From a bacterium (GTDB taxonomy: Bacteria > Myxococcota > UBA727 > JAUIJE01): a stretch of 64,000 nt of DNA. The notes under the pieces were generated by a model. That model saw only the letters and a program-made list of their open reading frames with translations. It was not told the DNA's origin and made no database searches. This document shows, piece after piece, positions 5,897-52,757 of this stretch (positions are counted from its first letter, which is position 1; the number at the start of each line of letters is the position of its first letter). Location of the stretch: contig JAUIJE010000003.1 in the NCBI GenBank assembly GCA_030431455.1, positions 72,360-136,359 on the forward strand, given 5' to 3'. Made by a program: the position numbers and the translations under genes.

Positions 5897-7609
5897 TTAG
5901 GCGGCGGCGGTCTTCTTCACCAGGAACGGCCCGGCGATGAGGTAGTTCAGCCCGCTTTCCTTGAGCACGTGAAGCGCGTCCTTGGCGTCGCGACAAATCG
6001 GGAAGCCGTGCAGGTTGAACGACGTGTTGAGCACCACCTTGCGCCCGGTCTTTTTTCGGAACGCGTCGATGATGCCGTACATCGCCGGGTTCTGCTCCTC
6101 GCGCAGCAACTGGGCCCGGCAGGTGAGGTCCGCGTTGTGAATCGCCGCGATGAGGTCGCGGAAGTTGTCGCGCGAATCAAACGTCATCATCATGTACGGG
6201 CTTTCGTTGCCCTTTTCGTTGTGGATGTACTCGTCGGCGTGCTCGGCCATCATCATCGGCGCAAACGGCATCCAGAAGTCGCGCTTTTTGACCATCTGGT
6301 TGATGACCCGCACGACGTCTTGGTTGGAGGGGTCGGCGAGGATCGAGCGGTTGCCCAATGCTCGTGCACCAAACTCCATGCGACCGGCGCAGCGCGCCAC
6401 AGGTTCGCCTTGCACGAGCAAGTCCGCCACCGCCTCGGCCATGTTGTCCGGTTTCGAATACTCGTAGCCCGTGGCCTTGATCGCGGCTTCAGTGTCCGCC
6501 TCGTCGAGGTCGTCGCCGAGGTAATAGTGCTCAAGGGGTTTGACCTCGGCGTGGCCATACTTGGCCGCGGCCGCTTGGTAGAAGCCACCGATGCACAAGG
6601 TCTCATCCCCACACGACGGGAAGGCCTGGAAGCTGTTCACTTCGGGAAGCTCGGCCAGGCGCTTGTTGGCCTTCACGTTCATGAACACGCCGCCGGCCGC
6701 GACCACGTCGCGCACCCCGGTCTCGCGCACGGCGTTGGCGCACCAACGCGCGAGCACCTTTTCGGTGAAGCGCTGCAAACCCGCGCACACGTAGTCGAAG
6801 CGCACCCCGCGCAGCTTGGTGAAGATTTCGGGCACGAAGTTGTCGGTGGGGAGCAGCGAGCCGCGCTTGAGCTTGAGCCCGCTGCCGTCGAGACCGAGGA
6901 ACGATTCAAAGATCTTGCAGGTCTCTTCGGTGGCGCTTTCGGACACGTACGGTGCCATGCCCATGAGTTTGTACTCGTGCTCGAGGGGGATGAACCCGAG
7001 CGCGTAGGTCACCCAGGAGTAGATGGCGCCAAGCGAATGCTGCCACGGGGTCTCGGCGAGCACGGTCTGTTTGCCGTTTTCCCAGACGCGCACGGTGGCG
7101 CAGTTGCGGTCGCCCGCGCCGTCGCAGGTGAGCACCAAGTAGGGCTTGTCCGGTCGTTCGCGCAGGCCGTAGTAGGCGGTGGCGGCGTGGCTGGTGTGGT
7201 GGTCGAAGAAGGTCAGCTGGCGGTTGCCGAGACCGTCTTTGTCGAGCTGCTTTTTGAGTTCGTTGTGGCCGACGTCCATGCGGGTGGCGACGAGCAGCGG
7301 CACCGCGAGGCGTTGGCGCATGCGACCGGTGACGGTCTCGAACCGTTTGTACGATTCCATCAGGTCGTCGCGCGAGTGGTACCGGATGAGAACCTGGCGG
7401 CAGCCGAGCACGACCTCTTCAATGTCACTGGGGGACGCGCCGACGTGCTCCAGGCAGGCTTGGATGGCGTGTCGGGGGTAGCCCCAGTAGTTTTTCTCGC
7501 GCATCACGCGCTCTTCTTGCACGGCGTAGAGGAGGCGGCCGCCTTGGCCGATGCAGGCACTGGCATTGTGTCCGGCGTGGACGCCGAGGATGTATTTCTT
7601 GTTGGTCAT
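5897..7609 (-). CDS. O-carbamoyltransferase, NodU/CmcH family
   Basis: This 570-residue protein has both NodU/CmcH domains. The N-terminal YrdC/Kae1-like fold opens with ILGVHAGHNASACI. The C-terminal carbamoyltransferase domain contains MEFGARALGNRSILADPSN. The family transfers carbamoyl from carbamoyl phosphate to a sugar hydroxyl through an adenylate intermediate, as in nodulation factors and antibiotics. Within this operon it probably carbamoylates a sugar of the surface polysaccharide. I chose the ATG at 7609 because the typical N-terminal MTNKKYILGV begins there, with a purine-rich GAAAGAGAA upstream. The frame above it is open but unconserved in style. Confidence 0.92.
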   Translation of the reverse strand: MTNKKYILGVHAGHNASACIGQGGRLLYAVQEERVMREKNYWGYPRHAIQACLEHVGASPSDIEEVVLGCRQVLIRYHSRDDLMESYKRFETVTGRMRQRLAVPLLVATRMDVGHNELKKQLDKDGLGNRQLTFFDHHTSHAATAYYGLRERPDKPYLVLTCDGAGDRNCATVRVWENGKQTVLAETPWQHSLGAIYSWVTYALGFIPLEHEYKLMGMAPYVSESATEETCKIFESFLGLDGSGLKLKRGSLLPTDNFVPEIFTKLRGVRFDYVCAGLQRFTEKVLARWCANAVRETGVRDVVAAGGVFMNVKANKRLAELPEVNSFQAFPSCGDETLCIGGFYQAAAAKYGHAEVKPLEHYYLGDDLDEADTEAAIKATGYEYSKPDNMAEAVADLLVQGEPVARCAGRMEFGARALGNRSILADPSNQDVVRVINQMVKKRDFWMPFAPMMMAEHADEYIHNEKGNESPYMMMTFDSRDNFRDLIAAIHNADLTCRAQLLREEQNPAMYGIIDAFRKKTGRKVVLNTSFNLHGFPICRDAKDALHVLKESGLNYLIAGPFLVKKTAAA

Positions 7610-7622
7610 GGTCGGTTCTCTT

Positions 7623-8891
7623 TCAAGGCTGTAGAAGCGGCCTGGCGAGCAATCGTAAAACGGCTGGCGGGTCACTGTGCGCGGCGTTCGGTGGCTGTGC
7701 GGCCTGTCGGTGCGCCCGGCGTTGGGCCTGCACCCAAGCTTCCAGGACACGATCGTACCGAGCCGCGGAAATGCCCAAGCCGAAGAAGATCATTGGTGAA
7801 TAAAGAACTTCGGAGGTGAAGAACCCCAGGTAGAGGAACGCGATGGTCTGGACCACTGTCGCTTCTCCAAGCGTCCTGACAACCGGCGGGACCACCACCC
7901 TTGCTGGGGCTTTCCGCCGCCAGGACAACGCCATGAGCCAAAATGCAAGGAAGGTCACCACACCCGAGCCGCCAAAAACATGGGCATACACATTGTGTGC
8001 TTCAATGGGCACACCATCGGGATCGAACCGGCGACCGAGCCGGCGCTTCAGGCCAGCGGGAGACTCGCCCAGAATGGGGGATTCAAATCCCGCCATGAAT
8101 GATTCTCGAATCAGCTCGACCCGTTTGGTGTCGCTGCCGATGCCAAGCCGTGTCTGCTCTATCCGCCGCTCAAGCACGCTCGTTGTAGTCACCTCTGTGA
8201 CGATTCCATAGGTGCCGCCAACGAGCAGCGCACCAAAAAGGATGGCCGAAGACCCTCGGCGAAGCGCAACCACGTAGGCCAACACCAAGGCGACACCGAT
8301 CCACCCCGACCGGTTCCCCGTCGAGAACACCGCACCCGCAATGATCAGGCCCGCGAGGCCGAGCAGCACGAGCAGTCGACGCGACCTGGTGGAGGTGGCC
8401 ACCAACGCTCCGTTTAGCAGGGCCGGGATCGCAAACAGTGCATAGGCGTTCTTGTTCCCTACGCCCTCCATTGGGTTGATGCCTTCGATTCCGATCTCAC
8501 CTCCCGCCAGCCCGCGCAATCCGATGATGGCACCCGCCAAGACCATTCCGACCGCGGCGTAGGTGTAGTCCCGGTTCGATCGAACAAGGAGGTAGCCGAC
8601 GAGAGCGGTCGTCAGCACCGCGCTGGTTTTCACAAGCTCGCCGACTACCCCGCCCCCCGGGACACAAGAAAGCCCATAGAGACCAAGAAACAGCGCAGAG
8701 GTGATGGTCGCGCTTCTCGGAATGCGGCTCGTGCCGGAGACAACAAGGTAGAAAAGCAGTGGACCGACGACCACGAGGTAGGGGTGCACTGAGAACGGCC
8801 CCAAACCGAGGCGCATTCCAGGAAAGGCGCTCCCCGCAAACAACAGGCCAATGACAAGCAGGGTGCTGCGTCGCAACCGGTTTGAGTTCAT
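7623..8891 (-). CDS. O-antigen polymerase/ligase-like membrane protein (Wzy candidate)
   Basis: This 422-residue protein is built of about ten to twelve hydrophobic segments. It includes the long extracytoplasmic loop before the last helices that is typical of Wzy/WaaL proteins. Visible polar motifs include GVGNKNAYALFAIPALLNG and STGNRSGWIGVAL, the latter resembling the NRSG box of the O-antigen ligase family. It would join repeat units or ligate them at the periplasmic face. The ATG at 8891 overlaps the upstream glycosyltransferase stop as ATGA. Polymerase versus ligase cannot be decided from sequence; the Wza/Wzc genes at 41676-44529 favour a polymerase. Confidence 0.77.
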   Translation of the reverse strand: MNSNRLRRSTLLVIGLLFAGSAFPGMRLGLGPFSVHPYLVVVGPLLFYLVVSGTSRIPRSATITSALFLGLYGLSCVPGGGVVGELVKTSAVLTTALVGYLLVRSNRDYTYAAVGMVLAGAIIGLRGLAGGEIGIEGINPMEGVGNKNAYALFAIPALLNGALVATSTRSRRLLVLLGLAGLIIAGAVFSTGNRSGWIGVALVLAYVVALRRGSSAILFGALLVGGTYGIVTEVTTTSVLERRIEQTRLGIGSDTKRVELIRESFMAGFESPILGESPAGLKRRLGRRFDPDGVPIEAHNVYAHVFGGSGVVTFLAFWLMALSWRRKAPARVVVPPVVRTLGEATVVQTIAFLYLGFFTSEVLYSPMIFFGLGISAARYDRVLEAWVQAQRRAHRQAAQPPNAAHSDPPAVLRLLARPLLQP

Positions 8892-17183: not shown

Positions 17184-18392
17184 TTAGGGCATCACTGCGC
17201 CACCGGCACACGGCATCTCGGCGCCGGTGATCTGCTGCGCGGCCTCAGAGAACAAGAACCCGACGAGTGCAGCTACGTCATCGGCTGTTGTTAGGGTTCG
17301 GGTGGCGGATTTTCGCGCCTCGGCAAGCAGGTGACGCTCCGACAGATGCCGCACAAGGTCGGTTTGCACCATGCTGGGGCTAACCATGTTCACGGTCGTC
17401 CCTTTTGAGCCAAACTCTGCGGCCAAAGCCTTGGTCAAGCCCCACAGTGCGCTTTTTGCAGTTACATAGGCCAGCATCTTGGGAGGTGGCGGCCCGTGGA
17501 GATACGAGGTGCCGATAAACACCACGCGGCCTTCGCGCCCGGCCGCATCGGCAACCACGCGCTGCGCGGCAAGGAGTCCCCATCCCACGTAGGCTCGCAA
17601 CAGGCCGTCGACATGGGTCCAGTCTGCCTCAGCAGCCTTCTCGAAGGGCAGGTCGGGAGTCGCCGCGTGAACCACCCCGACGAGGGATCCTTGCGATCGT
17701 CGGAGGTCATCGATTTGCTCGGCAGCGACGCCCAGGTCGCTGACGTCGAGTACGACCGGAAGCGCACTGCCCCCCCTTTGTTCGATCCGAGACACCACCG
17801 CCGCCACCGCGTCGTGGCTGCGGTGGTATCCACAGAGAACCCGATGTCCCGCCGCCGCCAGCTTCTCGGCAATCGCCGCACCGATCCCTCGACTTGCTCC
17901 GGAGACAAGGACCACACCGCCGGTGTGCCCGCGCCCAGCGACGCTCGCGCCGTCGGCTGAGGGACTGCTGATCGAATCGGACGAACCTTTGCCGTCCACA
18001 AGACCCACCACCGCGGTGGCGCGAAGGACCGTCAGTCCGTTCTGATTCTCGCCTGTGATGGCCAGCTGAGCAGATCCGTCAACACCGGAAACACGCTTCA
18101 CCAGAGCAGACAGCGACACTGTATCGCCAGGGAAGACTGGCGCCGTCCAATCAATCTGAAGGCGCCGCCACAAGGCCCCGGGCCCCGGCAGCTTGGTCCC
18201 GATGAGCGCAGAAATGGCGGCCACAAGGATGGCGCCGTGCGACACCCTTGTGGCAAAGCCATGCGCGGCGGCGAACGTGCCGTCCATGTGCAGGGGGTTG
18301 GTGTCGCCACAGAACGCCGCAAACGCATCCAAGGTTGCTTCGGATACGGTCAATGAAAGCTGTTCGACAGCACCGACTTCGAGCGCGCTCAT
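17184..18392 (-). CDS. MaoC-like hydratase fused to short-chain dehydrogenase/reductase
   Basis: This 402-residue fusion has residues 1-135 as a hot-dog MaoC/R-hydratase with the catalytic FCGDTNPLHMD (Asp30, His35). Residues 155-402 form an SDR reductase with SGASRGIG (164-171), a central HAATPD segment, and Tyr/Lys in AYVTAK. Together these are the dehydratase/hydratase and ketoreductase activities of fatty-acid-like chemistry on a carrier protein. The ATG overlaps the stop of the ACP gene (ATGA), so the ACP is the likely carrier of its substrate. The linker (136-155) is Ser/Gly rich. No ketosynthase lies nearby, so it may process a short acyl group rather than extend a chain. Confidence 0.86.
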   Translation of the reverse strand: MSALEVGAVEQLSLTVSEATLDAFAAFCGDTNPLHMDGTFAAAHGFATRVSHGAILVAAISALIGTKLPGPGALWRRLQIDWTAPVFPGDTVSLSALVKRVSGVDGSAQLAITGENQNGLTVLRATAVVGLVDGKGSSDSISSPSADGASVAGRGHTGGVVLVSGASRGIGAAIAEKLAAAGHRVLCGYHRSHDAVAAVVSRIEQRGGSALPVVLDVSDLGVAAEQIDDLRRSQGSLVGVVHAATPDLPFEKAAEADWTHVDGLLRAYVGWGLLAAQRVVADAAGREGRVVFIGTSYLHGPPPPKMLAYVTAKSALWGLTKALAAEFGSKGTTVNMVSPSMVQTDLVRHLSERHLLAEARKSATRTLTTADDVAALVGFLFSEAAQQITGAEMPCAGGAVMP

Positions 18393-18643
18393 CCGACGAC
18401 AAGCCCCTTCTCGCGGAGCAGCGCGATGACCTGTGCCATTGATCGCAGCTCTTGTGCCTCCTCTTCGGCGAACGACACTCCGAACTCTGATTCGAGGGTC
18501 ATTACGAGATTGATGATGCCCGCAGAATCCCATTCATCGATGTCGTCCTCCGAACTCGATTCCGTGAGCTCATCCGGATCGATCCCCAGCGCCGCCGCCA
18601 CCGCTTCTTTGACCTGATCGATGCCTGCCTTCCCTGCAGTCAT
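18389..18643 (-). CDS. Acyl carrier protein of the polysaccharide operon
   Basis: This 84-residue acidic protein has the phosphopantetheine site DEWDSAGIINL with Ser40, followed by LVMTLESEFGVSF, the helix II/III pattern of ACPs. It differs from the canonical GADSLDxVE motif of the fatty-acid ACP encoded at 52506, so it is a dedicated carrier. ATGA overlaps on both sides couple it to the FkbH-like gene upstream and the MaoC-SDR gene downstream. In FkbH systems the ACP carries a glyceryl group derived from 1,3-bisphosphoglycerate. Confidence 0.92.
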   Translation of the reverse strand: MTAGKAGIDQVKEAVAAALGIDPDELTESSSEDDIDEWDSAGIINLVMTLESEFGVSFAEEEAQELRSMAQVIALLREKGLVVG

Positions 18644-20400
18644 GCTCCACCTCCCGTGATTCTCTTGATGTGCTCAGGCCAAGTCGGAGCGCGTTCACGT
18701 GCGATCACAAAGCGTTCGCCATCCTGTGTGCCTGCCGCGGTCGGCTCAAAGCCTCGTCGAGGAAAGAAGTCCCTCACCATGGCGTTCTTGGCCGTCGGCC
18801 GATACTCGGCTTGCACAGTCCCGACGTAAGGGGCCAACTGCGACATCAAGTCTGCCAACATGGCGTCCTCCACGCCTCGGTTCATGACACGGCAACTCAT
18901 GAGGAACGTCTCGATGACTGCGCCGTCCTGCTCGCTTTTCACGACGCCTACGCCAACGATCCCCAACTTGCCGTAGCGGTCCTCGAGGCGATACCACCGG
19001 ATGGCGATCGCAGGATCGTCCATCATCCTTCGGAGCTCATCTTCGGTGTACCGAATCGTCGTCAGATTGTACTGATTGGTCTTCTGGCAAAGCTGATGCA
19101 CCCTGGCGAACGTTCCTGCATCGAGGTCACCACATTCCAGGGTCATCTCCAGGGACCGCAAAAAATCCTGAAGATTCGTCGCGTCGCTGACGGCCTCCTG
19201 CCTTTTTCGGTCGGCGAGCATCATCTCGGACCTGGTTCGGTCCTCTTCAGACACAGATGGGGCAAACACACCCTCGAGGTCGCTCAACGCCGCGACGTAG
19301 CCACCAGGGTGCGTTGGTAGGTCCAGGACGCGAACCTCCGGAACGTTCGCCCGAACCTCGGCGCGCTCTACTGGGTTATCATCGATAAACACCAGGCTGT
19401 TCAGACCAATGTTGAGCGAGGCAGCGATTCGCCGCAGCATTTCGGACTTCGGTTGCCATCCCGCCTCAATCGCCACGAAGTCGGATTCGCGCAGGACGAG
19501 ATCGGGATGGGCCCTGAAGCATTCGGCCACCGCATCGGGGTAGTTCTTGCTGGCAATCGCCAACATCAAACCCCGTGCCTTCAAAGACCGCAGAGCCAGC
19601 TGGAACCGTCGAAACAACAGGCCCTGGCCTTCATCGCCTATCTTGATTCCTGCCAGGCCGTCATCGCCCAACACCCCACCCCACAAGGTGTTGTCGAGGT
19701 CAAGCACCAAACACTTGTGTCTGGGAAGCAACACCCCGTACAACGTGCGCGCCAATGCTCGAGCATACGCCGGCTGGGCAGTGCTGCTGATCGCAACGCG
19801 CGCCATGGCGAACAGCTTCTCGTCAAAGAACGCGTCCAAGCCAATGCGATTCACAGCCTGAACGTGGTCGAACACAAACGCGCCAGGCACATCGGCCAAC
19901 GCTGCAGCAAGATCCACGTTGAGCGACGAGACAACCGCGGCAGGTCCATTGGCCTGTCCGGCCTCGAAGGGATCGAGCAGTCGTCCTTGGCTGGGATGGA
20001 AGTTGCTGACAAGGATCGTTGCACTTGTCCGGTCGCGCAGAGTCTGAACCAGCGACCTCAACCGACCCTTGATGGATTCCACGCGCTCTTGTCGTGAATC
20101 GACGTCCAACGATTCAAAGGCGTGGCCGAACGCCGCGTCCAGGTCCTCGAGACGCAGCAACAGAATCACCGCCTTCGCGTTGCTTTGGTAGAGCTCGGAC
20201 GAGTCGTCGAGGATCTCCTGTTCCAACTGACCCATGGGCGCGTGCCATGGCCGAACCAGCCAACCCATCTCGAAGGCGGCGTCGATCAGGTAGGGGCGGA
20301 GAAAGGCAGTGTGGAAGGTGGAAAGCAATGCGACCGGCGTACCCTCTTCGACCAATCGAGGCTCAAGCTCTTTCGCCCTTTTTAGTGCCGAAACGCTCAC
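18640..20400 (-). CDS. FkbH-like HAD-IIIC enzyme (candidate glyceryl-ACP synthase)
   Basis: This 586-residue protein has the full FkbH layout. The N-terminal SGNH-like region contains LLSTFHTAFLRPYL. The HAD domain has the nucleophile motif LVLDLDNTLWGGVLGDDG (Asp234, Asp236), IASKN and VFIDDNPVERAEV. The C-terminal domain is GNAT-like with QKTNQYNLTT and MSCRVMNRGVE. FkbH enzymes dephosphorylate 1,3-bisphosphoglycerate and load D-glycerate onto an ACP; the ACP gene is the next one. The GTG start at 20400 overlaps the GSCFA stop. Substrate identity here is inferred from the family. Confidence 0.9.
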   Translation of the reverse strand: MSVSALKRAKELEPRLVEEGTPVALLSTFHTAFLRPYLIDAAFEMGWLVRPWHAPMGQLEQEILDDSSELYQSNAKAVILLLRLEDLDAAFGHAFESLDVDSRQERVESIKGRLRSLVQTLRDRTSATILVSNFHPSQGRLLDPFEAGQANGPAAVVSSLNVDLAAALADVPGAFVFDHVQAVNRIGLDAFFDEKLFAMARVAISSTAQPAYARALARTLYGVLLPRHKCLVLDLDNTLWGGVLGDDGLAGIKIGDEGQGLLFRRFQLALRSLKARGLMLAIASKNYPDAVAECFRAHPDLVLRESDFVAIEAGWQPKSEMLRRIAASLNIGLNSLVFIDDNPVERAEVRANVPEVRVLDLPTHPGGYVAALSDLEGVFAPSVSEEDRTRSEMMLADRKRQEAVSDATNLQDFLRSLEMTLECGDLDAGTFARVHQLCQKTNQYNLTTIRYTEDELRRMMDDPAIAIRWYRLEDRYGKLGIVGVGVVKSEQDGAVIETFLMSCRVMNRGVEDAMLADLMSQLAPYVGTVQAEYRPTAKNAMVRDFFPRRGFEPTAAGTQDGERFVIARERAPTWPEHIKRITGGGA

Positions 20401-21473
20401 AGGAACTTCCTCAAAGAGGCAGGCAGGTACCGCTGAGGAATGGATTCCTTGAGCCGCTTCTTCGCGCGCCAGGCGAGGCGACGGACACGGCTGGGCTCGT
20501 TCACAGTCGTCGTTGGCGCAATCGGTGTTCGGTCCTTCTGGGGCTCAGAAGCAATGAGACTGAGGGAGGGAGGGGCGTCCACCTGGGCATCCGGACCGCC
20601 AAACGTCCGAAGCAAGTGCCAGCCGAATAGCTCCACCGCTCGGGGGTTGTAGTGTCGGCCGTCCTCCTCGGCGAACGCCAGCGGGTCGTCCGAGAACCGT
20701 ACGAAGTCTGCCACCGGCAGGAAGTGAACCGAGTCATCGCCCTCGGCGAACTCGGACATCGCACTGTGCAACCGAGCAACCGACTTCATGGAAGCACTGC
20801 GCACATCCCCAGGCAGGAGCGTGGCGAACAACGGAATGCCGCTGGTGGAGAACACGAGCTCAACTCCGGGTTTGAGCCGACGCAGCCCTTCGGTGATCGC
20901 ACGAAGGTCGCTCTTGATTTCTTCGACGGTCTGCATCCTCGTTGACAACTTCATGTCCTGGGCGATCTGCGGTGGGGGAAGGAGGATGAGGTGGTTTTCT
21001 GTGCTGGGCGATGGAAAGACCTCAGCGAACTCCGCGAAGACGAACACGACATCCGCGCCGCGCATCTGGCGTGCAGCCTTTGCATCTCGCGAGGCGCGGC
21101 GGGCGAGAACCTCTTCCGGAGAACCGAGTACCTGCGTGTAGCTTTTGGCGAACGGGTCCAAAAAACCCTTGCCGTCGGGAAGCTCCCACACACCCTCCGT
21201 GTCCCGCTGCGGCCACTCCTCGTTTGCCGCCCTCACCGCTTGGAGGATGGTCTTTGTGTCGTAGAGATGACCGTCGGGGTGCGATTTGGCATTGAACCCC
21301 CAGCGTCGCAACGTCGCGGTCAGCCACACCGCAGCGCAAGAACCGAGAAAAAAGAGGTTCGATGCGCGATCGAACAGCTGATGCGGAACCACCTCCGGTT
21401 CGGAGTGTCGCCCTCGCCAGGTATGCACATGGTCGAACTCCCACGTGCCACGTTTTCCCTCAAGAAATGGCAT
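20397..21473 (-). CDS. GSCFA-domain protein (SGNH-like), putative acyl-handling enzyme
   Basis: This 358-residue protein carries FFLGSCAAVWLTATLRRWGFN, the variant GSC(F)A signature of the GSCFA family. It also has VFVFAEFAEVF and the C-terminal HYNPRAVELFGWHLL, where the His-containing motif of the family falls. GSCFA proteins are predicted SGNH-type esterases or acyltransferases with no firm biochemistry. Its place between a methyltransferase and the FkbH/ACP pair suggests it transfers or trims the carrier-bound group. The last 45 residues are Arg/Lys rich. It starts at an ATG 35 nt after the preceding stop. Confidence 0.78.
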   Translation of the reverse strand: MPFLEGKRGTWEFDHVHTWRGRHSEPEVVPHQLFDRASNLFFLGSCAAVWLTATLRRWGFNAKSHPDGHLYDTKTILQAVRAANEEWPQRDTEGVWELPDGKGFLDPFAKSYTQVLGSPEEVLARRASRDAKAARQMRGADVVFVFAEFAEVFPSPSTENHLILLPPPQIAQDMKLSTRMQTVEEIKSDLRAITEGLRRLKPGVELVFSTSGIPLFATLLPGDVRSASMKSVARLHSAMSEFAEGDDSVHFLPVADFVRFSDDPLAFAEEDGRHYNPRAVELFGWHLLRTFGGPDAQVDAPPSLSLIASEPQKDRTPIAPTTTVNEPSRVRRLAWRAKKRLKESIPQRYLPASLRKFL

Positions 21474-21508
21474 GGGTCACTCCCGCAGTGACTTGAACGG
21501 CAGCGCGC

Positions 21509-22327
21509 TCACGACGGTTTGCAGGTGGCGGTGAGTCGCACATAGGGTTGGGAACCCGACCCCACGTCCTCGAGCACCTTCTTGGTCAGAGTGAGTCCCG
21601 TGCCGTTCATCAGGTGTTCGTAGTGGTGACTGAACGCCGTCCGTTTGCGCGGACGGGACTCTGTTTCACGCGCCAAATCAAGGTTGGTCACCTCGGCAAA
21701 CACCAAACGCGTGGTGTTGTTTCCCGTTGCCATCAGGCGAAAGAAATCCTGAAGCTCGCTGGGCGTAAAGTACTGAAGCGTGCCCACCGCGATGACAACC
21801 ACACCGTCCAGCGGATTGCTCTTCAGCCACTCCTGGATCTCTCCCGCGATGAACGTCAGACCAGGGAACCGCTCATTGTTGTCCGCCATCTGAGCGGCGT
21901 TCAAATCGATGCCGACCAGCGAGCGCCCTTCGCCGAATCCCTCGTTTCCAAGCCATTCCAAAAACCGTCCGCTTCCCGCGCCCACTTCGATCACCGTCTT
22001 TGTGCCGGGGAGCTCATCGAGAACTTCTCGGAGCTGGTTCACCAACGCCTTGCGCTGCTCCAGCCGGACATCGTCGTGCTCTTCAAACCACTTTTTCCCA
22101 TCCGCATTCGCCCAGAAACGATCGCGGTTGAGCCGACGAAGTTCGTGCTCCGGCAGTGCGTAGTATTGACGCTGAAACTCTCCCCACATCACCCGCTCAA
22201 ACACATTGCGTGGCGTCCGGGCCGCGAACCACTCCTCCCGCATCCCCTCGGTGAGGTCGCTGGGGAGCACGCGCCCGAGGGCCCGTCCCAAAAGGTCTTT
22301 GGTTTTTGCTTTCAGCTCTGCTCTCAT
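21509..22327 (-). CDS. SAM-dependent methyltransferase
   Basis: This is a 272-residue class I methyltransferase with VIEVGAGSGRFLEWL as the SAM loop, GIDLNAAQM, and VVVIAVGTLQYFTPSEL as the post-II/III region. The ATG at 22327 lies 1 nt after the upstream neuA stop. The open frame extends 85 codons upstream but that stretch is the shadow of neuA. It is grouped with the ACP/FkbH module, so it may O-methylate the carrier-bound group or a sugar hydroxyl. In Campylobacter a di-O-methylglyceryl group on a nonulosonic acid is known. The target here is inference. Confidence 0.83.
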   Translation of the reverse strand: MRAELKAKTKDLLGRALGRVLPSDLTEGMREEWFAARTPRNVFERVMWGEFQRQYYALPEHELRRLNRDRFWANADGKKWFEEHDDVRLEQRKALVNQLREVLDELPGTKTVIEVGAGSGRFLEWLGNEGFGEGRSLVGIDLNAAQMADNNERFPGLTFIAGEIQEWLKSNPLDGVVVIAVGTLQYFTPSELQDFFRLMATGNNTTRLVFAEVTNLDLARETESRPRKRTAFSHHYEHLMNGTGLTLTKKVLEDVGSGSQPYVRLTATCKPS

Positions 22328-22328
22328 C

Positions 22329-23021
22329 TCATGTCCTGTCGTGGTGCAATGAACGCTCCAGCAAGAACTCGGCAAACGCCCAGTCGAGCTCGTCGTTGAT
22401 GTCGTGTGATCGATCGCGCGGCATGATGTAGCCAACGCAGGTGTCATCCCAAAGTGTGCCGCCGTCAGCCAGCCTCGCCTGCCCCGCATAGACAGAACCA
22501 TTGCGCACAAACACCTTCGGCATCTCGTGGGCGGCGATCCGACCGGCCTCCTCTTCCAACAGAGGCCGGAGCACGGGACCATCCATCGTCTTCAGCTTGA
22601 GGGGATGGACGCCGTGCTCCACCTCCACCACGCTCACGGCGGACCTGGCCTCGGTGGTTTCCATGAGCGCCAGCGTGCCGTCGACATCGCTGGCGAGGGT
22701 GAACGGACTCGTGACCTGAAGAATGCAGAAGGTGTCAAAGCCCTGAAAGCACTGTAGAGCGTGCTGCACGTAGGCCACCGCCGGCGCTTTGTCACCCGCC
22801 AACGCAGCGGGACGCGCCAACGCAGCCACATGTTCCGTTCCCGCCGCGCTTTCCAAGATCACCGGGTCGTCTGAACTCACGACCCACTGGTTCACTCGTT
22901 GCGCCTTGGCCGCCACATCGAATGCCCATCGGAACAGAGGCCGTCCTCCGAGGGGACGGGTGTTCTTGCCCGGGATTCGTTTTGAACCCGCTCGCGCGGG
23001 AATGATGCCAAGTACCTTCAA
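22329..23021 (-). CDS. neuA: CMP-nonulosonate (acylneuraminate) cytidylyltransferase, copy 1
   Basis: This protein of about 230 residues has the CMP-sialate synthetase N-terminus IIPARAGSKRIPGKN, SSDDPVI, LQVTSPF, VEHGVHPLK and the C-terminal DINDELDWAFAE. It activates a nonulosonic acid with CTP in the cytoplasm. The start is unclear because only TTG codons fit. I prefer the TTG at 23021, giving MKVLGIIPARAG, 7 nt after the neuC stop; a TTG at 23039 would overlap neuC and add six residues. It is the last gene of the second nonulosonate cassette and differs clearly in sequence from copy 2 at 25205. Confidence 0.87.
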   Translation of the reverse strand: MKVLGIIPARAGSKRIPGKNTRPLGGRPLFRWAFDVAAKAQRVNQWVVSSDDPVILESAAGTEHVAALARPAALAGDKAPAVAYVQHALQCFQGFDTFCILQVTSPFTLASDVDGTLALMETTEARSAVSVVEVEHGVHPLKLKTMDGPVLRPLLEEEAGRIAAHEMPKVFVRNGSVYAGQARLADGGTLWDDTCVGYIMPRDRSHDINDELDWAFAEFLLERSLHHDRT

Positions 23022-23028
23022 CGGCCGC

Positions 23029-24180
23029 TCAGTACACAATGCGCTTTTGAATCTGCGGGGTGTGTTTGGTCAGCTCTTCCGCGATGCGTGCGCCCGCGGT
23101 CCCGTCGCCGTAAATCGGCTCCATGGGGTAGCGACCGTGATCGAGCTGACGCCGAATCGCTTTCTCGATGTCGTCTCTCGAGTGGCCGACGTCAATGACG
23201 TTCGACCCGCGCTCGCGCATGTCCTGGCGCGAACCAATGTTGACCACCGGGGTGCCGATGAACGCGCCTTCGCGAATGCCACTGGAGGAGTTCCCGACCA
23301 GACAAGCCGTTCGCTTCATGAGGTGGACGTAGGTCGCGATGGGCAGGTTCTTGAAGAAGTGCATTCGGGTGTCGCGACCCTGTTCGCGCCACTTTCGCAT
23401 CCCACGGGAAATATCCTCTGAACCAGCATCCGAGTTGGGCCACAGGCAAATCGCAGGAAGGCCCGTTGCCTCGATGGCCTCAAGGGTGGCGGTGATCTGT
23501 TCCTCGCCCACCCCGAATTCCGTGGTCACCGGGTGCTGGGACATGAGGATGAACGGCTGGTCCAATGCCACATCGCCGCCAACGCCTTCGAACTTGAGTT
23601 CGCCCAGGACCGCATCCCCATCTTGCTCGAGGATGTCCTTGACCAGGTCGATGCGCGGGCAGCCCACAAGACGAATATCGTCCTCTCGTTCGCCCAGCTT
23701 GCGAATCCGATCCGCTGCGTCTTGGCTCGCGGGGAAATGCAGGTGAGCAAACTTGGTCACTGCGTGTCGGATACTTTCGTCGATGGTACCGGTCACCTCG
23801 CCACCCATCGTGTGCGCCAACGCAATGTTCATGTACGCCGCGGCCAACGTTGTGGCCATGGTCTCGTACCTGTCACCGACCGTGACGACGTAGTCCGGCT
23901 TCAGCTCATCGAAGGTGGTGGCCAGTTCGATCAGCCCGAGCCCGGTGGTCTTCGCCATCGTCAGTGGCGTTTCCCCCTCGATGACCATGTAAATGCGACG
24001 GTCGATGGTGAACCCGTCACGCTCGACCAGGTCCACCACCGAACCGTACCGATCGAGAAGGGCCGAGGCGCCAGCAACAACCTGGAGCTGAAGCCCAGGG
24101 TGATCCTGAATCGCCTTCATCGCGGATTTGATGCTGCTGTAGTTCGCGCGGGAACCGATGACGACGCATATCTTTTTCAT
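23029..24180 (-). CDS. neuC: Hydrolysing UDP-HexNAc 2-epimerase (NeuC family), copy 1
   Basis: This 383-residue GT-B-like epimerase has GSRANYSSIKSAM at the N-terminus, VTVGDRYETMATTLAAAYM, HTMGGEVTGTIDESIRHA and LVGNSSSGIREG. These are the substrate and UDP-binding segments of NeuC enzymes that release a 2-epimerised N-acetylhexosamine from a UDP-sugar. The product feeds NeuB. The ATG overlaps the neuB copy 1 stop as ATGA. Whether UDP-GlcNAc or a di-N-acetyl bacillosamine-type sugar is used cannot be told from sequence. Confidence 0.92.
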   Translation of the reverse strand: MKKICVVIGSRANYSSIKSAMKAIQDHPGLQLQVVAGASALLDRYGSVVDLVERDGFTIDRRIYMVIEGETPLTMAKTTGLGLIELATTFDELKPDYVVTVGDRYETMATTLAAAYMNIALAHTMGGEVTGTIDESIRHAVTKFAHLHFPASQDAADRIRKLGEREDDIRLVGCPRIDLVKDILEQDGDAVLGELKFEGVGGDVALDQPFILMSQHPVTTEFGVGEEQITATLEAIEATGLPAICLWPNSDAGSEDISRGMRKWREQGRDTRMHFFKNLPIATYVHLMKRTACLVGNSSSGIREGAFIGTPVVNIGSRQDMRERGSNVIDVGHSRDDIEKAIRRQLDHGRYPMEPIYGDGTAGARIAEELTKHTPQIQKRIVY

Positions 24181-25196
24181 GTCCTACTCAGCTCTCTTTG
24201 GAAAAAGTCATCGGGGTGCAGAAGTGCGTCCGCCGCCACGTCCCGCGCCAGCGTCTTGCCCAAGTAGGCATCCAGCTGAGCCGGGGGAATGCCCGTGCCC
24301 GGCTTTTTCAATGCCACCATGTCTGCGGTGAGCGTGGTGCCACGCGGAAGAGCCTGACGGGCGACCAATGACTTCTGGAAGGTCGTTTTCATCGCGGCGT
24401 AGGCGCTGATGTCGTTCTTGTCGACGGGGTGAGCCAGCGCGGTCCAGACCTCGTTCAAGCTGTCGGCCAGAACTCGGAACCGCTCAGGCGTCATCGAATG
24501 CTGCGCATCACTGCCGTACATGAGGGTGGAGAACGTAAAATGCTTCTCCACACAAACCGCGCCCAGCGCAGCCGCCGCAATGGGACTGGCGTACCCCAGC
24601 GTGTGGTCCGAAAAACCGACCGCACAGCCGTAGCGGCCCTTCATCTCCGCGATCACATTGAGCCCCACGGCTTCAGGGCTGCACGGATACGCAGAACTAC
24701 ACTGCATGACCAAAAGAGGGCCCCCGCCGCGCAGCACCTCGACCGCCGCATCGAGTTCCGCCCAGTCGCTCATCCCACTGGACAGCAGCACCGGCTTTTT
24801 GGTCTGCGCCAAGTGTCGCAGCAACGGAAGGTTGGTCACCTCTCCGGAGGGCACCTTGTACGCGTCGACACCGACCTCCTCGAGGAAATCAATCGCCTCC
24901 AACGAAAATGGGGACGACAGAAATCCCACGTGCCGTTCGGCACAGAGCGCCATCATGTCGTCATATTGCGAGCGGGTGAACGCTGTCCGCTGAAAGTACT
25001 CAAACCGCGGCTCCGCTTTGAAGTAAGGCGGATTGGGCGCGTTCCGAATGGTCTCCGCCTCAGCAATGTGGGTTTGAAACTTCACGCACTTGGCGCCGCT
25101 GGCCGCGGCCGCCTCGATGAGCTTCATCGCATTGCCGAACGACCCGTCGTGTACTGAACCGACCTCGGCGATGAGGACCTGGTCAAATGGATGCAT
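24177..25196 (-). CDS. neuB: Nonulosonic acid synthase (NeuB family), copy 1
   Basis: This 339-residue protein has a TIM-barrel domain with [53 protein letters not shown] and VCVEKHFTFS. A C-terminal SAF/antifreeze-like domain ends in [10 protein letters not shown] and LGKTL. This is the NeuB/NeuB-like family that condenses PEP with an N-acetylmannosamine-type sugar. The ATG at 25196 lies 8 nt after the upstream neuA stop; a longer open frame above it lacks support. The EKH motif is intact here, unlike in copy 2. Confidence 0.92.
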   Translation of the reverse strand: MHPFDQVLIAEVGSVHDGSFGNAMKLIEAAAASGAKCVKFQTHIAEAETIRNAPNPPYFKAEPRFEYFQRTAFTRSQYDDMMALCAERHVGFLSSPFSLEAIDFLEEVGVDAYKVPSGEVTNLPLLRHLAQTKKPVLLSSGMSDWAELDAAVEVLRGGGPLLVMQCSSAYPCSPEAVGLNVIAEMKGRYGCAVGFSDHTLGYASPIAAAALGAVCVEKHFTFSTLMYGSDAQHSMTPERFRVLADSLNEVWTALAHPVDKNDISAYAAMKTTFQKSLVARQALPRGTTLTADMVALKKPGTGIPPAQLDAYLGKTLARDVAADALLHPDDFFQRELSRT

Positions 25197-25204
25197 AGAT
25201 TTCG

Positions 25205-25921
25205 CTACCTCGCCGGTTGGAAAGTTTCGGTGGCGTTCCGCTCCGCCCACAAGAACTGGGCAAAACGAAAGTCGAACGCATCGTTGATGTCGACACTTCT
25301 CGCTCGCGGCATCACCACACCGCGACAGTCCTGGCCGATGATGACGCCGGACTCCACCACCTCACGTCGGGTCAAATAGACCGAGCAATTGCGCACGTAG
25401 GCCGGCGGCAGGTCGGCCTTGCTCATCCGGCCCCGTTCCTCCTCGAGGTATGGCTCAAGGCGCCCACCCACCAACCGCTTGGCCTTCACCGGGTGGACAT
25501 CGTGCGGCATCTCCACAACGGTCACGACGGTGTCTGCCCCGGTTTGTTCGAGCACCTCGACGCAGGCGTCCACGTCGTCGCCCAATGTGAACGGCGAGGT
25601 CGGCTGAACGATGCAGACCGCATCCGCACGCTGCCCGCTTGCTTCATACGCCGCCAGAACATGCCGCACGTAGTCGATGGCGGGACTGTCGTCGGCGGCG
25701 AGATCGGCGGGACGCTCCAGGGCGATCGCCCCGGCCCTGGCCCGCGCCAGGTCCAACACGTCCGGATCGTCAGAGGAGACGTACAACGCAGAAAGCGTGC
25801 GAGCCGTGAGCGCGGCGTCCATGGCCCATTGCACCAACGGCTTGTCGCCCAACACCCGCACGTTCTTCCGCACCAGCCCCTTTGACCCGGCACGCGCGGG
25901 CACGATGCCGACAATGTTCAT
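25205..25921 (-). CDS. neuA: CMP-nonulosonate (acylneuraminate) cytidylyltransferase, copy 2
   Basis: This 238-residue protein has VGIVPARAGSKGLVRKN, SSDDPDVLDLA, VQPTSPF, VEMPHDVHPVKAK and a C-terminal VDINDAFDFRFA. These are the CTP and nonulosonate-binding segments of NeuA. The AGSKG instead of AGSKR loop and other changes set it apart from copy 1, so the two copies may activate different nonulosonic acids. The ATG overlaps the hydroxyacid dehydrogenase stop as ATGA. It is encoded just upstream of neuB copy 1 and closes the first cassette. Confidence 0.92.
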   Translation of the reverse strand: MNIVGIVPARAGSKGLVRKNVRVLGDKPLVQWAMDAALTARTLSALYVSSDDPDVLDLARARAGAIALERPADLAADDSPAIDYVRHVLAAYEASGQRADAVCIVQPTSPFTLGDDVDACVEVLEQTGADTVVTVVEMPHDVHPVKAKRLVGGRLEPYLEEERGRMSKADLPPAYVRNCSVYLTRREVVESGVIIGQDCRGVVMPRARSVDINDAFDFRFAQFLWAERNATETFQPAR

Positions 25922-26865
25922 GGCTGGATCCCAAGGGCACGCAACACCTTGTTGGCGACGAACGTCTCCGTCTTGACGAAACTCTCGCGCGTATTTCCGC
26001 CGATGTGGGGGGTGAGCAGAACCTCGGGCCGGCCCTGGCCGTACGCGACCACGGGGTGGGACGCGTCGATGGCGGGCTCCCCCGACAAGACGTCCAACGC
26101 GACCCCACCGAGGCGGCCATGTTGCAGCGCCGCCAACATGGCAGTCTCGTCGACGATGCCGCCTCGCGCAGTGTTGATGAGCACGGCACCGGGCTTGAGA
26201 CGCTCAAAGAACGTCTTCCCCAAGAGCCCCTCCGTCGACTCGTCGAACACGGCGTGCACCGACACGATGTCACTTTTTTCGGCCAACAGTGCGAGGTCCG
26301 CGCATCGCTCCACATCAGCAGGAAAGTCTGCGCGTGGGTCATATCCCCATACGGTGGCACCGAAGGCACCAAAGAGCCGTGCGGTGAGCTGGCCGAGACG
26401 GCCGACGCCGACCAGGCCCACCCGCTTTCCATAGATTTCAGATCCTCGGAACAGGTCGCGGTCCCACCCCCCGCTTTCGACATGTTCCGCGGCATGCGCC
26501 AGACGCCGCAACAGGGCCAAGGTCAGCGCGAGGGTGTGCTCAGCGGTGGCCACGACGGTGCGCAGGAACTCTGCTTCGCCTTTGAGACTCACCACTTGAA
26601 CGTTCCGTGCCGCCGCGGCTTGAAGGTCGATGTGGTCGAGCCCGGTGGTGGCGGTGGCCAACACCCGGCACCGAGGCGCGGCTCCCATCTCCGCCGCCCC
26701 CACCCGAGAGGCAAGGCGAACCCAAACCGCGTCAAAGTTCGCGAAAGCGGCCGGCAGGTCCGCCGGGACGGTGGCCTCCATCGTCACGTCACAATGCTCA
26801 CGCAACAGTCCCAATGCCGGCTCACTGAAGTCATCGGGCTCGGCAATGAGGACGCGAGGGGTCAC
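25918..26865 (-). CDS. D-isomer-specific 2-hydroxyacid dehydrogenase
   Basis: This 315-residue enzyme has the two-domain layout of the phosphoglycerate dehydrogenase/formate dehydrogenase superfamily. It shows the NAD loop GLVGVGRLGQ, LINTARGGIVDE with the catalytic Arg, and TPHIGGNTRES with the catalytic His. It lacks the C-terminal ACT domain of biosynthetic SerA. The GTG start overlaps the neuC copy 2 stop and its own stop overlaps neuA copy 2, so it is locked inside the nonulosonate cassette. It may act on a 2-keto or 2-hydroxy acid precursor, possibly a glycerate derivative for the ACP module. This is inference. Confidence 0.88.
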   Translation of the reverse strand: MTPRVLIAEPDDFSEPALGLLREHCDVTMEATVPADLPAAFANFDAVWVRLASRVGAAEMGAAPRCRVLATATTGLDHIDLQAAAARNVQVVSLKGEAEFLRTVVATAEHTLALTLALLRRLAHAAEHVESGGWDRDLFRGSEIYGKRVGLVGVGRLGQLTARLFGAFGATVWGYDPRADFPADVERCADLALLAEKSDIVSVHAVFDESTEGLLGKTFFERLKPGAVLINTARGGIVDETAMLAALQHGRLGGVALDVLSGEPAIDASHPVVAYGQGRPEVLLTPHIGGNTRESFVKTETFVANKVLRALGIQP

Positions 26866-28037
26866 GCGGCGGGGACCTCATCCACGTAGGAGATGTGCTT
26901 CTGCACGTAGGGGGTGAGATTGGCCACCGCCTGGGCCACACGGTCGGCTACGTGACCGTCGCCGTACAGCGTCGATGGTGCATAGCGACCGTGACCGAGC
27001 TGGTTGCGAATGCAGCCCTCGATGTCGTCGGCCACCGGCTCAACCTTTTTCACATGGTCATCGTGCTCCCGATGGCGCTGGCGATTCCCCACCAAGACGA
27101 CCGGGGTACCGAAGTACCCCGCGTCCCGCACAAACGAGGACGAGTTGCCCACCAGACAAGCGGCGTTGGCCAGGACGCGCAGGTAGTCGTCCGGCGTGAG
27201 GTTGGTCATCGTTCGAAGCCAGCCATCTCCACGGTCCGACCGAAAGATGCGAATGGCTTTGCTAATGTGGTCACTGCCCGCGTCGATGTTCGGCCACAGC
27301 AAGAGCGTAGGCGCCGCCACCCGGTCCAGTGCCTCCAGCACCGCTTCCATCTGGCCCCGCTCGCCTCCGTACTCGGTGGTGGTGGGGTGAAACACGGTCA
27401 CCAGGAAAGGTTTGGCCACGTCGATGGGGGCGCCTGCGCCGCGCCCGTTGATGACCTCTGAAGGCAACGTCCTGTCCAGTCGGCGGGCGAGGTCGCTCGA
27501 CGGGCAACCGACCCCGAGGATGGACGTCTTGTGCTCGCCCATCCGTTCGAGGAAGTGTGCGGCACGCTTGGTCGATGGAAAATGAAACTGCGCAAACTTG
27601 CTGATCGCGTGTCGTGCGCTCTCATCGATGGAGCCCGACACTTCCCCGCCCTGCAGGTGGACGATGGGGAGATTCATGTAGGCGGCGGCGATGGCCGCAC
27701 CCAGCGCCTCGTATCGGTCGCCGATCATCAAGAGCAGGTCCGGGCGCAGCCGCGCAAACTCGGAAGCGAACTCGATTGTGCCAAAGCCTACGGACTTGGC
27801 CATGGTCACCGGTTGGGAGCCCTCCAGCTCCACAAAGATGCGTCCATCAATGGTGAAACCGTCCTGCTCCACCACCTGGGCCGGCTCGTCGAACCGCTCG
27901 AGCACCATCGTGCCGGCACACACGGTTTGCAGCGTCAGCGCGGGATGTTCCTTGACCGCCTGCATCACCGGCTTGAGCCGGCCGTAGTTGGCCCGGTCGA
28001 CGAGCACGACACATACTTTTCGCTTGCGGTCAGCCAA
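26862..28037 (-). CDS. neuC: Hydrolysing UDP-HexNAc 2-epimerase (NeuC family), copy 2
   Basis: This 391-residue paralogue of the epimerase at 23029 has VLVDRANYGRLKPVM, LMIGDRYEALGAAIAAAYM, HLQGGEVSGSIDESARHA and CLVGNSSSFVRDAG. Differences such as SFVRDAG for SGIREG in the UDP-binding loop suggest a separate specificity. The start is a TTG at 28037, overlapping the neuB copy 2 stop by 8 nt; no better in-frame start is visible. It should provide the hexosamine for neuB copy 2. Confidence 0.9.
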   Translation of the reverse strand: MADRKRKVCVVLVDRANYGRLKPVMQAVKEHPALTLQTVCAGTMVLERFDEPAQVVEQDGFTIDGRIFVELEGSQPVTMAKSVGFGTIEFASEFARLRPDLLLMIGDRYEALGAAIAAAYMNLPIVHLQGGEVSGSIDESARHAISKFAQFHFPSTKRAAHFLERMGEHKTSILGVGCPSSDLARRLDRTLPSEVINGRGAGAPIDVAKPFLVTVFHPTTTEYGGERGQMEAVLEALDRVAAPTLLLWPNIDAGSDHISKAIRIFRSDRGDGWLRTMTNLTPDDYLRVLANAACLVGNSSSFVRDAGYFGTPVVLVGNRQRHREHDDHVKKVEPVADDIEGCIRNQLGHGRYAPSTLYGDGHVADRVAQAVANLTPYVQKHISYVDEVPAA

Positions 28038-29076
28038 GGTCTTGCTCCTGGATTTGCCCGTTCTTCTTCACATTCCGCCGAAGGGTCTTGCCTACGACAT
28101 CGTCCCACCGCGCGGCGGGGATGCCCGTGCCCGGCTTTTTCAATGACAGGTCGCCGGCGCCGAGCACCGTCCCTTCCGACAAATCGTGACGAGCCACCAC
28201 CGACTTGGTGAATATGTTGTGCAGGTCGCCCAACGAATCCGCCATCGCGTCCTTGTCCACCGGATGCTGCACCGCCGTGCGCAAGGCGGTGGCCCCCTCT
28301 TTCAGCGCGCGCAGTTCATCGATGGTCAACGACGACGACGTATCCGGCCCGAAACAGTGCTTGCTGAACACCACATGCACTTCCAACAGGTCCGCACCCA
28401 ATGCCACCGCACCGAGCCCCGCAGCCACGGTGGCGGAATGGTCGGAATAGCCCACCGGCCCGGAATAGCGCGCCTTCATGTCGCCAATGACGTTCAACCC
28501 CCAACGCGCCGGTTCGACCGGGTACGAGGTCGTGCATTGGAACACGGCAACATCTGCGCCCGCCCCTTCGGCGCAGCGAACCGCGGCGTCAAGCTCGTCC
28601 CAGTGGCTCATCCCCGAGGAGATGAGCAAAGGCTTTCCGGTGGCGGCCATCTGCCGAATCATGGGCAGATTTGAAATCTCCCCCGAGCCAAGCTTCCACG
28701 CGGGCATGCCCACGCGCTCCAGGAGCTCGACCGCCTCGAACGAAAACGCCGACGACAAAAACACGATGCCGCGCTCTTTGGCGTGAGCGGCCAGACCGTG
28801 CCACTGGTCCTCGGTGAACTCCATGCGCTGCCAGTACTCGAACCGGGTGGCGTCCTGCTTGGAGAACTTCACCCGCCACGGTTCATCGGGGGTGGACTCC
28901 GCCTCGGCGATGTGTGTCTGAAACTTGATGGCGTCTGCCCCGGCGTCCGCCACCGCATCGACATATGCATGGGCATTGCCCAACGAGCCGTCGTGGGCCT
29001 GGGCGATCTCCGCGATCACGAACACATCGTGTCCGGGCCCGATCCGCCGGTCCGCGATGTCGATCACGCGGCTCAC
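28030..29076 (-). CDS. neuB: Nonulosonic acid synthase (NeuB family), copy 2
   Basis: This 348-residue TIM barrel plus SAF domain protein has [48 protein letters not shown] and [10 protein letters not shown]. It is homologous to copy 1 along its length. The usual EKH motif reads EVH here ([16 protein letters not shown]), so the Lys is replaced. [14 protein letters not shown] segment resembles the GPD substrate loop, which is GSD in copy 1. The GTG start overlaps the upstream epimerase stop as GTGA. It is the first gene of the duplicated nonulosonate region in the direction of transcription. Confidence 0.9.
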
Positions 29077-32125: not shown

Positions 32126-33187
32126 ATGGCGCCAGACAGTTTTCCGGTCCAGGAGGATGCGGCGGTTGCTCGACGCAATCTGGTGGTCTTCCTGGCCGTT
32201 ACGCTCGTTCTCGGAGCGAGCACGATCGCGACAAACGTCGTCGTGAACCCTTTCGGAAAGTACCCGTGGCGGGTGCTTCCGCCGGTGATCGAAACGGCAA
32301 GGACCGAGAAGTCCGCGGCACTTTCAGCGACAGCCCCAAAGCCCCAAGCGCTTATTTTGGGGTCGTCTCGCACCATGAAGCTGGCCCCATCGGACATTCG
32401 GGAGCAAACCGGCCTGACGACCTACAACGCATCTGTGCATAGCGCGCGCGCCGAGGATCTGCTTGCTTTCTATCGTCTTGCCGAGAGGCTTGATGGCCCG
32501 CCCCTAAAGTTGTTGGTGATCGGGCTTGACGTCGAAGCAGCGCACAATACGGTTCAGCCGGACGCCCGGCTCCTGAACAACAAACGTTTGCTGGCGGAGC
32601 TCGCGGACCAGGACATCGAAAGATCATCGTTGGCAGCCTTCGGCGAAGATCTTGGCTGGCCGACCCTCCGCGCGTCGATTTCTTCTCTCCGCGTCTCGCC
32701 TGCGGACCGCTGGGCGGAGAGTTCGCAAACGACGTTTAATTCCGCGGGATTCGTTACCTATGGTCGCGACGAAAAGCTGAAGTCCGAGAATATTTTTAAT
32801 CTTCCCAAGAGGATTGCGTCCTCCAAGCAGGAGTATGTTGCGCGTTTTCGGGGCTTTGACCAACTCGATGCCGTACGGCTTGGGCGGCTCGAAGCCCTGT
32901 TCGAGGCTGCGTCGTCACGCGGCACACGCGTTGTCGTCTTTCTCACGCCGCTCCACCCCGAACTGCTGGCCCACCTGCAAGCGACCAACCTGGTCGCCCG
33001 ACTGAACGACCTACGAAACTGGCTGCACACGTTCTGCGCAACAAAAAAGATCGTCGCGTACGACGCAACCGACCCAAACCGCTTTGGTGCGGACTTGCAT
33101 GGCTTCTTCGATGGCGCGCACGCAGATCGAAACAACATGAGGAAGCTAAGCCACGTACTTCTGGAGCTGGACGGCTGTGCTCTTTAA
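32126..33187 (+). CDS. SGNH/DltD-like protein paired with MBOAT acyltransferase
   Basis: This 353-residue protein has an N-terminal membrane anchor (about residues 18-40). A periplasmic SGNH-like domain has the nucleophile region ALILGSSRTMKL (Ser80/Ser81) and a C-terminal DGAH (Asp329, His332) fitting the Asp-His pair. Such proteins work with MBOAT proteins to move acyl groups, usually acetyl, onto exported polysaccharide. The ATG is preceded by an AAGGG about 7 nt upstream. Its 3' end overlaps the MBOAT gene by 11 nt. It is on the opposite strand to all surrounding polysaccharide genes. Confidence 0.72.
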   Translation: MAPDSFPVQEDAAVARRNLVVFLAVTLVLGASTIATNVVVNPFGKYPWRVLPPVIETARTEKSAALSATAPKPQALILGSSRTMKLAPSDIREQTGLTTYNASVHSARAEDLLAFYRLAERLDGPPLKLLVIGLDVEAAHNTVQPDARLLNNKRLLAELADQDIERSSLAAFGEDLGWPTLRASISSLRVSPADRWAESSQTTFNSAGFVTYGRDEKLKSENIFNLPKRIASSKQEYVARFRGFDQLDAVRLGRLEALFEAASSRGTRVVVFLTPLHPELLAHLQATNLVARLNDLRNWLHTFCATKKIVAYDATDPNRFGADLHGFFDGAHADRNNMRKLSHVLLELDGCAL

Positions 33188-37666: not shown

Positions 37667-37680
37667 GCTCCCCGAGTTTG

Positions 37681-52505: not shown

Positions 52506-52757
52506 TCAGGAAGCGGCTTTTTGCTCGTCCTGGAAGCGCTTCACGTGACCGATGGCATCGCCCACAGTGGAGATTTTTTCCGCTTCCTCGTCGGGGATCT
52601 CGGTCTGGAACTCTTCTTCCATGGCCATGATCAGCTCGACGATGTCGAGGGAGTCCGCGCCGAGATCCTCGATGAACTTCTTCTCATCGGTGACTTCATC
52701 TTCGCTCAGGCCCAGCTGGTCAGCGATAATCGAACGAACGCGTTGCTCCATATCCAT
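52506..52757 (-). CDS. acpP: Acyl carrier protein of fatty-acid synthesis
   Basis: This 83-residue ACP has the canonical phosphopantetheine site [15 protein letters not shown] with Ser36, followed by [18 protein letters not shown]. It carries the growing acyl chain for FabD, FabG and a ketosynthase. I chose the ATG at 52757 because AGGAGA lies 6 nt upstream; a second ATG two codons later is less well placed. It sits 90 nt after fabG, a gap large enough for an internal promoter, which would fit the high ACP demand. Confidence 0.95.

Follow-up and report, generated by a model that had tools for sequence, protein, structure and literature searches.

The window analysed here is a 64,000-nt stretch of contig JAUIJE010000003.1 from a myxococcal genome (GCA_030431455.1). 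Its minus strand carries, from position 22327 to 17184, five consecutive genes for a methyltransferase, a GSCFA protein, an FkbH-like enzyme, an acyl carrier protein (ACP) and a fusion of a MaoC hydratase/dehydratase with a short-chain dehydrogenase/reductase (SDR). A first-pass annotation, made from the letters alone, had read this row as a module that builds an acyl group for a nonulosonate polysaccharide; matches to Pfam and NCBIfam, together with the positions of motifs, confirm the five genes, their order and Ser40 of the ACP. The 4-nt ATGA overlaps that it had listed for the FkbH/ACP (18640-18643) and ACP/MaoC-SDR (18389-18392) junctions are present as well, as is a third, GTGA, at the GSCFA/FkbH junction, while the methyltransferase and GSCFA genes are spaced by 35 nt. 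The row lies immediately downstream of two NeuB/NeuC/NeuA sets, which are preceded, nearly without gaps, by a UDP-sugar dehydrogenase and an epimerase. Beyond the row, the downstream genes encode an ABC transporter, glycosyltransferase-like proteins, AsnB, a Wzy-type protein and a carbamoyltransferase.

The last three proteins of the row carry intact signature motifs. The FkbH-like protein lies well above the curated cut-off of TIGR01686 (282 versus 147 bits, E=5e-84), retains both HAD-IIIC motifs (DLDNTLW at 234 and FIDDNP at 338, with D234/D236 and D340/D341) and has a relative in the PDB (3SLR). Likewise, the MaoC domain keeps its GDTNPLH motif (D30, H35) and the SDR domain its catalytic S296-Y309-K313. 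The ACP shares a D/E-W-D-S (W-D-S) signature with other FkbH-linked ACPs; the idea that it is a second copy of the AcpP of fatty acid synthesis (FAS), encoded at 52506-52826, was rejected, given an identity of 23% and a different DSL context. A 4'-phosphopantetheinyl transferase is encoded elsewhere in the genome, and in one related locus (L107; such labels denote loci in other genomes) an ACPS-type phosphopantetheinyl transferase (7601-7933) is found directly upstream of FkbH, which supports a working holo-ACP.

To go by gene neighbourhoods, FkbH, ACP, MaoC and SDR are a real unit, the order of which varies. We scanned named bacterial genomes with an alignment of MaoC-SDR, a sample biased towards this protein, and obtained 24 whole-query matches, 20 of which adjoin FkbH, nearly all with an ACP as well. 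These cassettes come from Omnitrophota, Myxococcota, Verrucomicrobia/Kiritimatiellia, Alphaproteobacteria, Gammaproteobacteria, Gallionella, Chloroflexi, Nitrospina, Planctomycetota, Acidobacteria, Oscillospiraceae and Ignavibacteria records. They are ordered FkbH-ACP-MaoC-SDR or MaoC-SDR-FkbH-ACP, with MaoC and SDR fused in some loci and encoded by neighbouring genes in others. Searches for the FkbH family in Myxococcota, Campylobacterales-type, Bacteroidota-type, Pseudomonadales-type and alphaproteobacterial genomes, with neighbourhoods extended for part of the loci, place MaoC and SDR at no fewer than nine of 76 FkbH sites found independently of MaoC-SDR, and all four functions occur together in L135, L136, L192, L256 and L263. 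The earlier remark that a hydratase-reductase without a ketosynthase is unusual does not survive this recurrence in many phyla; in the window, too, the operon has no ketosynthase, and the nearest one (fabF) belongs to the FAS cluster, ~33 kb away. FkbH is also found on plasmid records: it is followed by MaoC-SDR in Subdoligranulum, accompanied by ACP and acyltransferases in Tistrella (FkbH, ACP, methyltransferase, MBOAT) and Niveispirillum (FkbH-ACP-WcbI-SDR), and tetronate-like in Methylosinus. E. coli genomes gave no FkbH match at the DNA level.

In a quick FkbH tree, which contains some long branches, the association with MaoC/SDR is clustered yet scattered over several parts, requiring five to seven changes as opposed to 19 for shuffled labels. 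A single clade of MaoC/SDR-linked FkbH proteins was not found; the association appears to have been gained or lost repeatedly. The window protein groups with that of L135, where the cassette likewise belongs to a myxococcal genome, and far from the FkbH of Campylobacter.

The same four functions are also found on a single polypeptide. In a Myxococcota genome, a trans-acyltransferase polyketide synthase (PKS; L137:2932-9000) starts with MaoC-SDR-FkbH-ACP followed by a ketosynthase, and this start looks like a module for loading a C3 starter. It matches the stand-alone genes in function and, for several cassettes, in order, but it feeds a ketosynthase rather than a sugar acyltransferase. The presence of all four functions on one chain argues for their sequential action on one carrier-bound unit.

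Most cassettes adjoin an acyltransferase, and at least 16 besides that of the window have one of a glycan-modifying type. These neighbours are GNAT (L031, L032, L035, L036, L038, L044, L263) or MBOAT proteins (L046, L048, L065, L070, L080, L094, L136, L192), a hexapeptide transferase (L039) and an AAC(3)-type N-acyltransferase (L135), and several of the GNAT-type cassettes (L031, L035, L038, L044, L263) are enclosed by PseB/PseG-H/NeuB pseudaminate clusters. The suggested link to nonulosonate genes is borne out more broadly, with NeuB within ~9.5 kb at 8 of 70 stand-alone FkbH loci. On this basis, we consider it highly probable that FkbH, ACP and MaoC-SDR constitute a self-contained cassette that provides the acyl donor for a surface glycan, in line with the acyl-building role that had been proposed for FkbH and ACP.

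For the product we favour a lactyl group, with about even chances of being right. Following the known activity of its family, FkbH would dephosphorylate D-1,3-bisphosphoglycerate and load the glyceryl unit onto holo-ACP. MaoC, as its domain and the fusion suggest, would then eliminate the 3-hydroxyl to yield 2-hydroxyacrylyl (enol)/pyruvyl-ACP, and SDR would reduce the 2-keto group to lactyl-ACP. Finally, an acyltransferase would hand the lactyl group to a sugar, forming an amide in the case of GNAT or AAC(3) enzymes and an ester in that of MBOAT; in the window, the likely acceptor would be the nonulosonate of the operon or some other sugar in its polysaccharide. A pathway-reconstruction tool encodes the FkbH loading module as yielding D-lactate-ACP (PMC7901079), and lactyl groups are known from bacterial glycans, e.g. 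N-linked to Rha4N and Fuc3N (PMC9912281) or, as (R)-lactate, to pseudaminate (Pse) in the capsule of Psychrobacter marincola (PMC7281560). This Pse5(R)Lac7Ac is an N-linked C3 2-hydroxyacyl nonulosonate of the kind predicted for GNAT-type cassettes, and in the text consulted we found no genes reported for N-(R)-lactyl-pseudaminate. The literature on FkbH in O-antigen loci, on lactyl-ACP and on bryostatin with FkbH offered no direct genetic precedent for glycans.

Several observations weigh against this proposal. Three loci (L107, L259, L260) encode FkbH-ACP-MaoC with no SDR identified, and three others (L172, L173, L176) FkbH, ACP and SDR but no MaoC; the two enzymes may thus work independently of each other or in another role. 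The window cassette has no adjacent GNAT or MBOAT gene, GSCFA being the only possible acyltransferase that adjoins it, and its nonulosonate set is of the NeuC type (N-acetylmannosamine route) rather than following the pseudaminate route of the other loci and of the P. marincola glycan. Moreover, the usual substrates of MaoC and SDR enzymes are 3-hydroxy- and 3-keto-acyl chains, and both the elimination from glyceryl and the 2-keto reduction are assumed. As typical 3-hydroxyacyl enzymes, MaoC and a FabG-like SDR might instead turn a FAS intermediate (an acetoacetyl or crotonyl thioester) into the ACP form of 3-hydroxybutyryl, a common N-acyl substituent of bacterial amino sugars, with FkbH acting separately or on another substrate. 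3-Hydroxybutyryl groups decorate nonulosonates and diamino sugars (PMC3210612). We regard this as improbable: there is only one ACP, to which FkbH is coupled, the PKS fusion points to sequential action on the FkbH-loaded unit, and the operon has neither a ketosynthase nor an acyl-loading enzyme.

It also appears rather unlikely that the product is a glyceryl or O-methylglyceryl group, loaded by FkbH and methylated by the methyltransferase, with MaoC-SDR in a minor or different role. Such groups exist, as di-O-methylglyceric acid on PseAc of Campylobacter jejuni flagellin (PMC3958885) and as N-glyceroyl-Pse in Tannerella forsythia (PMC6388019), for which the gene has been called elusive (PMC6120980, PMC6388019). 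Moreover, FkbH-ACP-methyltransferase arrangements without MaoC/SDR are found in Campylobacterales (L171, L177) and Bacteroidota (L183-L190), and the second gene upstream of FkbH in the window encodes a methyltransferase. However, GSCFA intervenes between the two, and the methyltransferase belongs to a different family from the one that recurs next to FkbH; no homologue of it lies beside FkbH in L031-L110, and its candidacy as an FkbH-linked methyltransferase was rejected. A glyceryl end product would leave MaoC and SDR unexplained, since both retain their motifs and are translationally coupled, and their presence points to a reduced product rather than to the methylated glyceryl group that had been envisaged at first. 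The parallel to Campylobacter drawn in this context holds in part. The flagellar-type loci L177 and L171 encode ACP-methyltransferase-FkbH-FabH-ACP, in L177 adjoining PseB/PseG/NeuA, and thus share FkbH, a dedicated ACP and a methyltransferase with the window. They differ in having a FabH-like β-ketoacyl-ACP synthase III (KAS III) and a second ACP in place of MaoC-SDR, a 300-aa methyltransferase of the FkbH-linked family and an FkbH of a distant clade; the window has a single ACP and no FabH.

Polyketide clusters are the best-known setting of FkbH (PMC4979870, PMC7489565), and some of the relatives are embedded in PKSs, which raises the question of whether the genes serve a small secreted, polyketide-like or tetronate-like metabolite instead of a polysaccharide. 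We deem this very improbable. Stand-alone relatives recur in glycan clusters, and the operon encodes no ketosynthase, acyltransferase domain of the PKS type (AT), FabH or thioesterase, and runs from the UDP-sugar dehydrogenase through NeuB/C/A to the ABC transporter and glycosyltransferases, its genes overlapping by 4-11 nt or separated by small gaps. Methoxymalonyl-ACP and tetronate operons do resemble the cassette in that FkbH and a stand-alone ACP form glyceryl-ACP, which is tailored on the carrier. There, however, tailoring is by two dehydrogenases (of the hydroxyacyl-CoA and acyl-CoA types) and an O-methyltransferase, or by FabH-like condensation with an acyltransferase/dehydratase (PMC7489565), as opposed to MaoC and SDR without a PKS in the window. 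No acyl-CoA dehydrogenase-type family was found among the operon genes scanned, nor did any scanned gene match a KAS III family; the neighbours of FkbH and ACP are GSCFA and MaoC-SDR.

The methyltransferase and GSCFA are, on comparative grounds, local additions to the cassette. The GSCFA protein scores 59.9 bits against PF08885 (cut-off 25) and contains GSC (Cys46) and DGRH motifs, the former invariant in five sequences. Its structural model, with a predicted local distance difference test (pLDDT) score of 72, matches SGNH/GDSL enzymes in Foldseek, with PatB and the acyltransferase SsfX3 as the best PDB hits. Given this SGNH/GDSL-like fold and the two motifs, the protein might act as an acyltransferase or as an esterase. 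The first-pass annotation had made it the transferase of the module; we rejected it as one of the module's conserved components. Any GSCFA protein was found in just one of 23 other genomes with cassette-type or MaoC-FkbH loci, and there on a contig without FkbH. In a genome of the same order (L208), an operon without FkbH encodes a UDP-sugar dehydrogenase, an epimerase, NeuB, NeuC, GSCFA, a D-2-hydroxyacid dehydrogenase and NeuA; GSCFA therefore appears to go with nonulosonate genes. Overall, the earlier interpretation is partly supported.

Other genes of the window may act on the same polysaccharide. A single open reading frame (ORF) on the minus strand (3307-4740) matches methyltransferase and GNAT domains and is a possible N-acyltransferase. 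Two MBOAT genes, each with a second gene, are located within this polysaccharide region at 32126-34562 (plus strand) and 36569-39201 (minus strand), the second gene of the latter pair encoding an ALGX-like SGNH protein. Candidate transferases for the window cassette would thus be GSCFA, the methyltransferase-GNAT protein and the MBOAT proteins at 33177-34562 or 37681-39201. The nonulosonate genes (22329-29076) form a tandem pair of complete NeuB/NeuC/NeuA sets (Table 1), of which L208 has set 1, together with GSCFA and the dehydrogenase.

Table 1. Genes of the FkbH row and the adjoining nonulosonate sets in the window
Feature	Position	Strand	Evidence
MaoC (hydratase/dehydratase)-SDR reductase fusion, 402 aa; cassette core	17184-18392	-	Pfam MaoC 2.4e-17, adh_short_C2 6.3e-33
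Dedicated ACP, 84 aa, Ser40 in DEWDS; cassette core	18389-18643	-	PF00550 5.2e-7
FkbH-like (FkbH_N, HAD-IIIC, C-terminal domain), 586 aa; cassette core; predicted glyceryl transferase/phosphatase	18640-20400	-	TIGR01686
GSCFA protein, SGNH-type fold; outside conserved cassette	20397-21473	-	PF08885 4.2e-16
Class I S-adenosylmethionine (SAM) methyltransferase, 272 aa; local addition	21509-22327	-	Methyltransf_25 7.6e-8
CMP-nonulosonate cytidylyltransferase-like, set 2	22329-23039	-	PseF-like TIGR03584 98 bits (below cut-off); CTP_transf_3
NeuC-like UDP-GlcNAc 2-epimerase, set 2	23029-24180	-	TIGR03568 387 bits (above cut-off)
NeuB-like nonulosonate synthase, set 2 (ORF opens at 25250)	24177-25196	-	PF03102 2.6e-72
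Cytidylyltransferase-like, set 1	25205-25921	-	CTP_transf_3 6.9e-19
D-2-hydroxyacid dehydrogenase-like, inserted in set 1	25918-26865	-	PF02826 2.8e-47; adjoins GSCFA in L208
NeuC-like epimerase, set 1	26862-28037	-	Family of the other NeuC; homologue in L208
NeuB-like synthase, set 1	28030-29076	-	PF03102 1.7e-62

Beyond the four-function cassettes, Bacteroidota loci (L184-L193, L266) feature a simpler FkbH-ACP pair with MBOAT or GNAT and without MaoC/SDR. In L184, L186, L188, L190, L191 and L193, the arrangement is FkbH-(300-aa methyltransferase)-ACP-MBOAT, with the methyltransferase lacking in L191 and L193, and is reminiscent of Dlt. L266 (4092-11212), where FkbH-ACP and a GNAT-like gene come after dTDP-sugar genes (RmlB-like, DegT aminotransferase), is a candidate N-glyceroyl cassette. 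Dlt-type systems combine a carrier protein with esterification by an MBOAT protein and obtain their acyl group from an adenylating enzyme. The MBOAT-type relatives L065, L070 and L136 are similar in that their carrier protein and MBOAT genes are followed by another gene, and a small carrier would serve a membrane acyltransferase; they differ in that the acyl group would come from FkbH (with MaoC-SDR), and the window operon differs in lacking the adjacent MBOAT. Finally, a radical-SAM gene is found near the cassette in L035, L036, L039 and L087, with a B12-binding domain detected by Pfam in L035 and the others recognised by similarity. In corramycin biosynthesis, a radical-SAM enzyme C-methylates FkbH-loaded glycerate (PMC10099666), and given this precedent, C-methylated variants are possible.

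Rare acyl groups of three carbons are chemically known from the surface sugars of bacteria, but the genes for them have been lacking; FkbH-ACP cassettes, with or without MaoC-SDR, provide concrete candidates, and the mass of the carrier would separate their products (glyceryl, +88 Da; lactyl, +72 Da). They also connect the loading chemistry of polyketides with glycan decoration. We tentatively propose, at somewhat less than even odds, that FkbH-ACP-MaoC-SDR represents a general, as yet unnamed bacterial route from glycolytic 1,3-bisphosphoglycerate to lactyl-ACP for the N- or O-lactylation of surface sugars. Such a route would be common to many phyla, would have been exchanged with PKS loading modules and may explain N-lactyl glycans that still lack assigned genes, while FkbH-ACP without MaoC-SDR may serve N-glyceroyl glycans.

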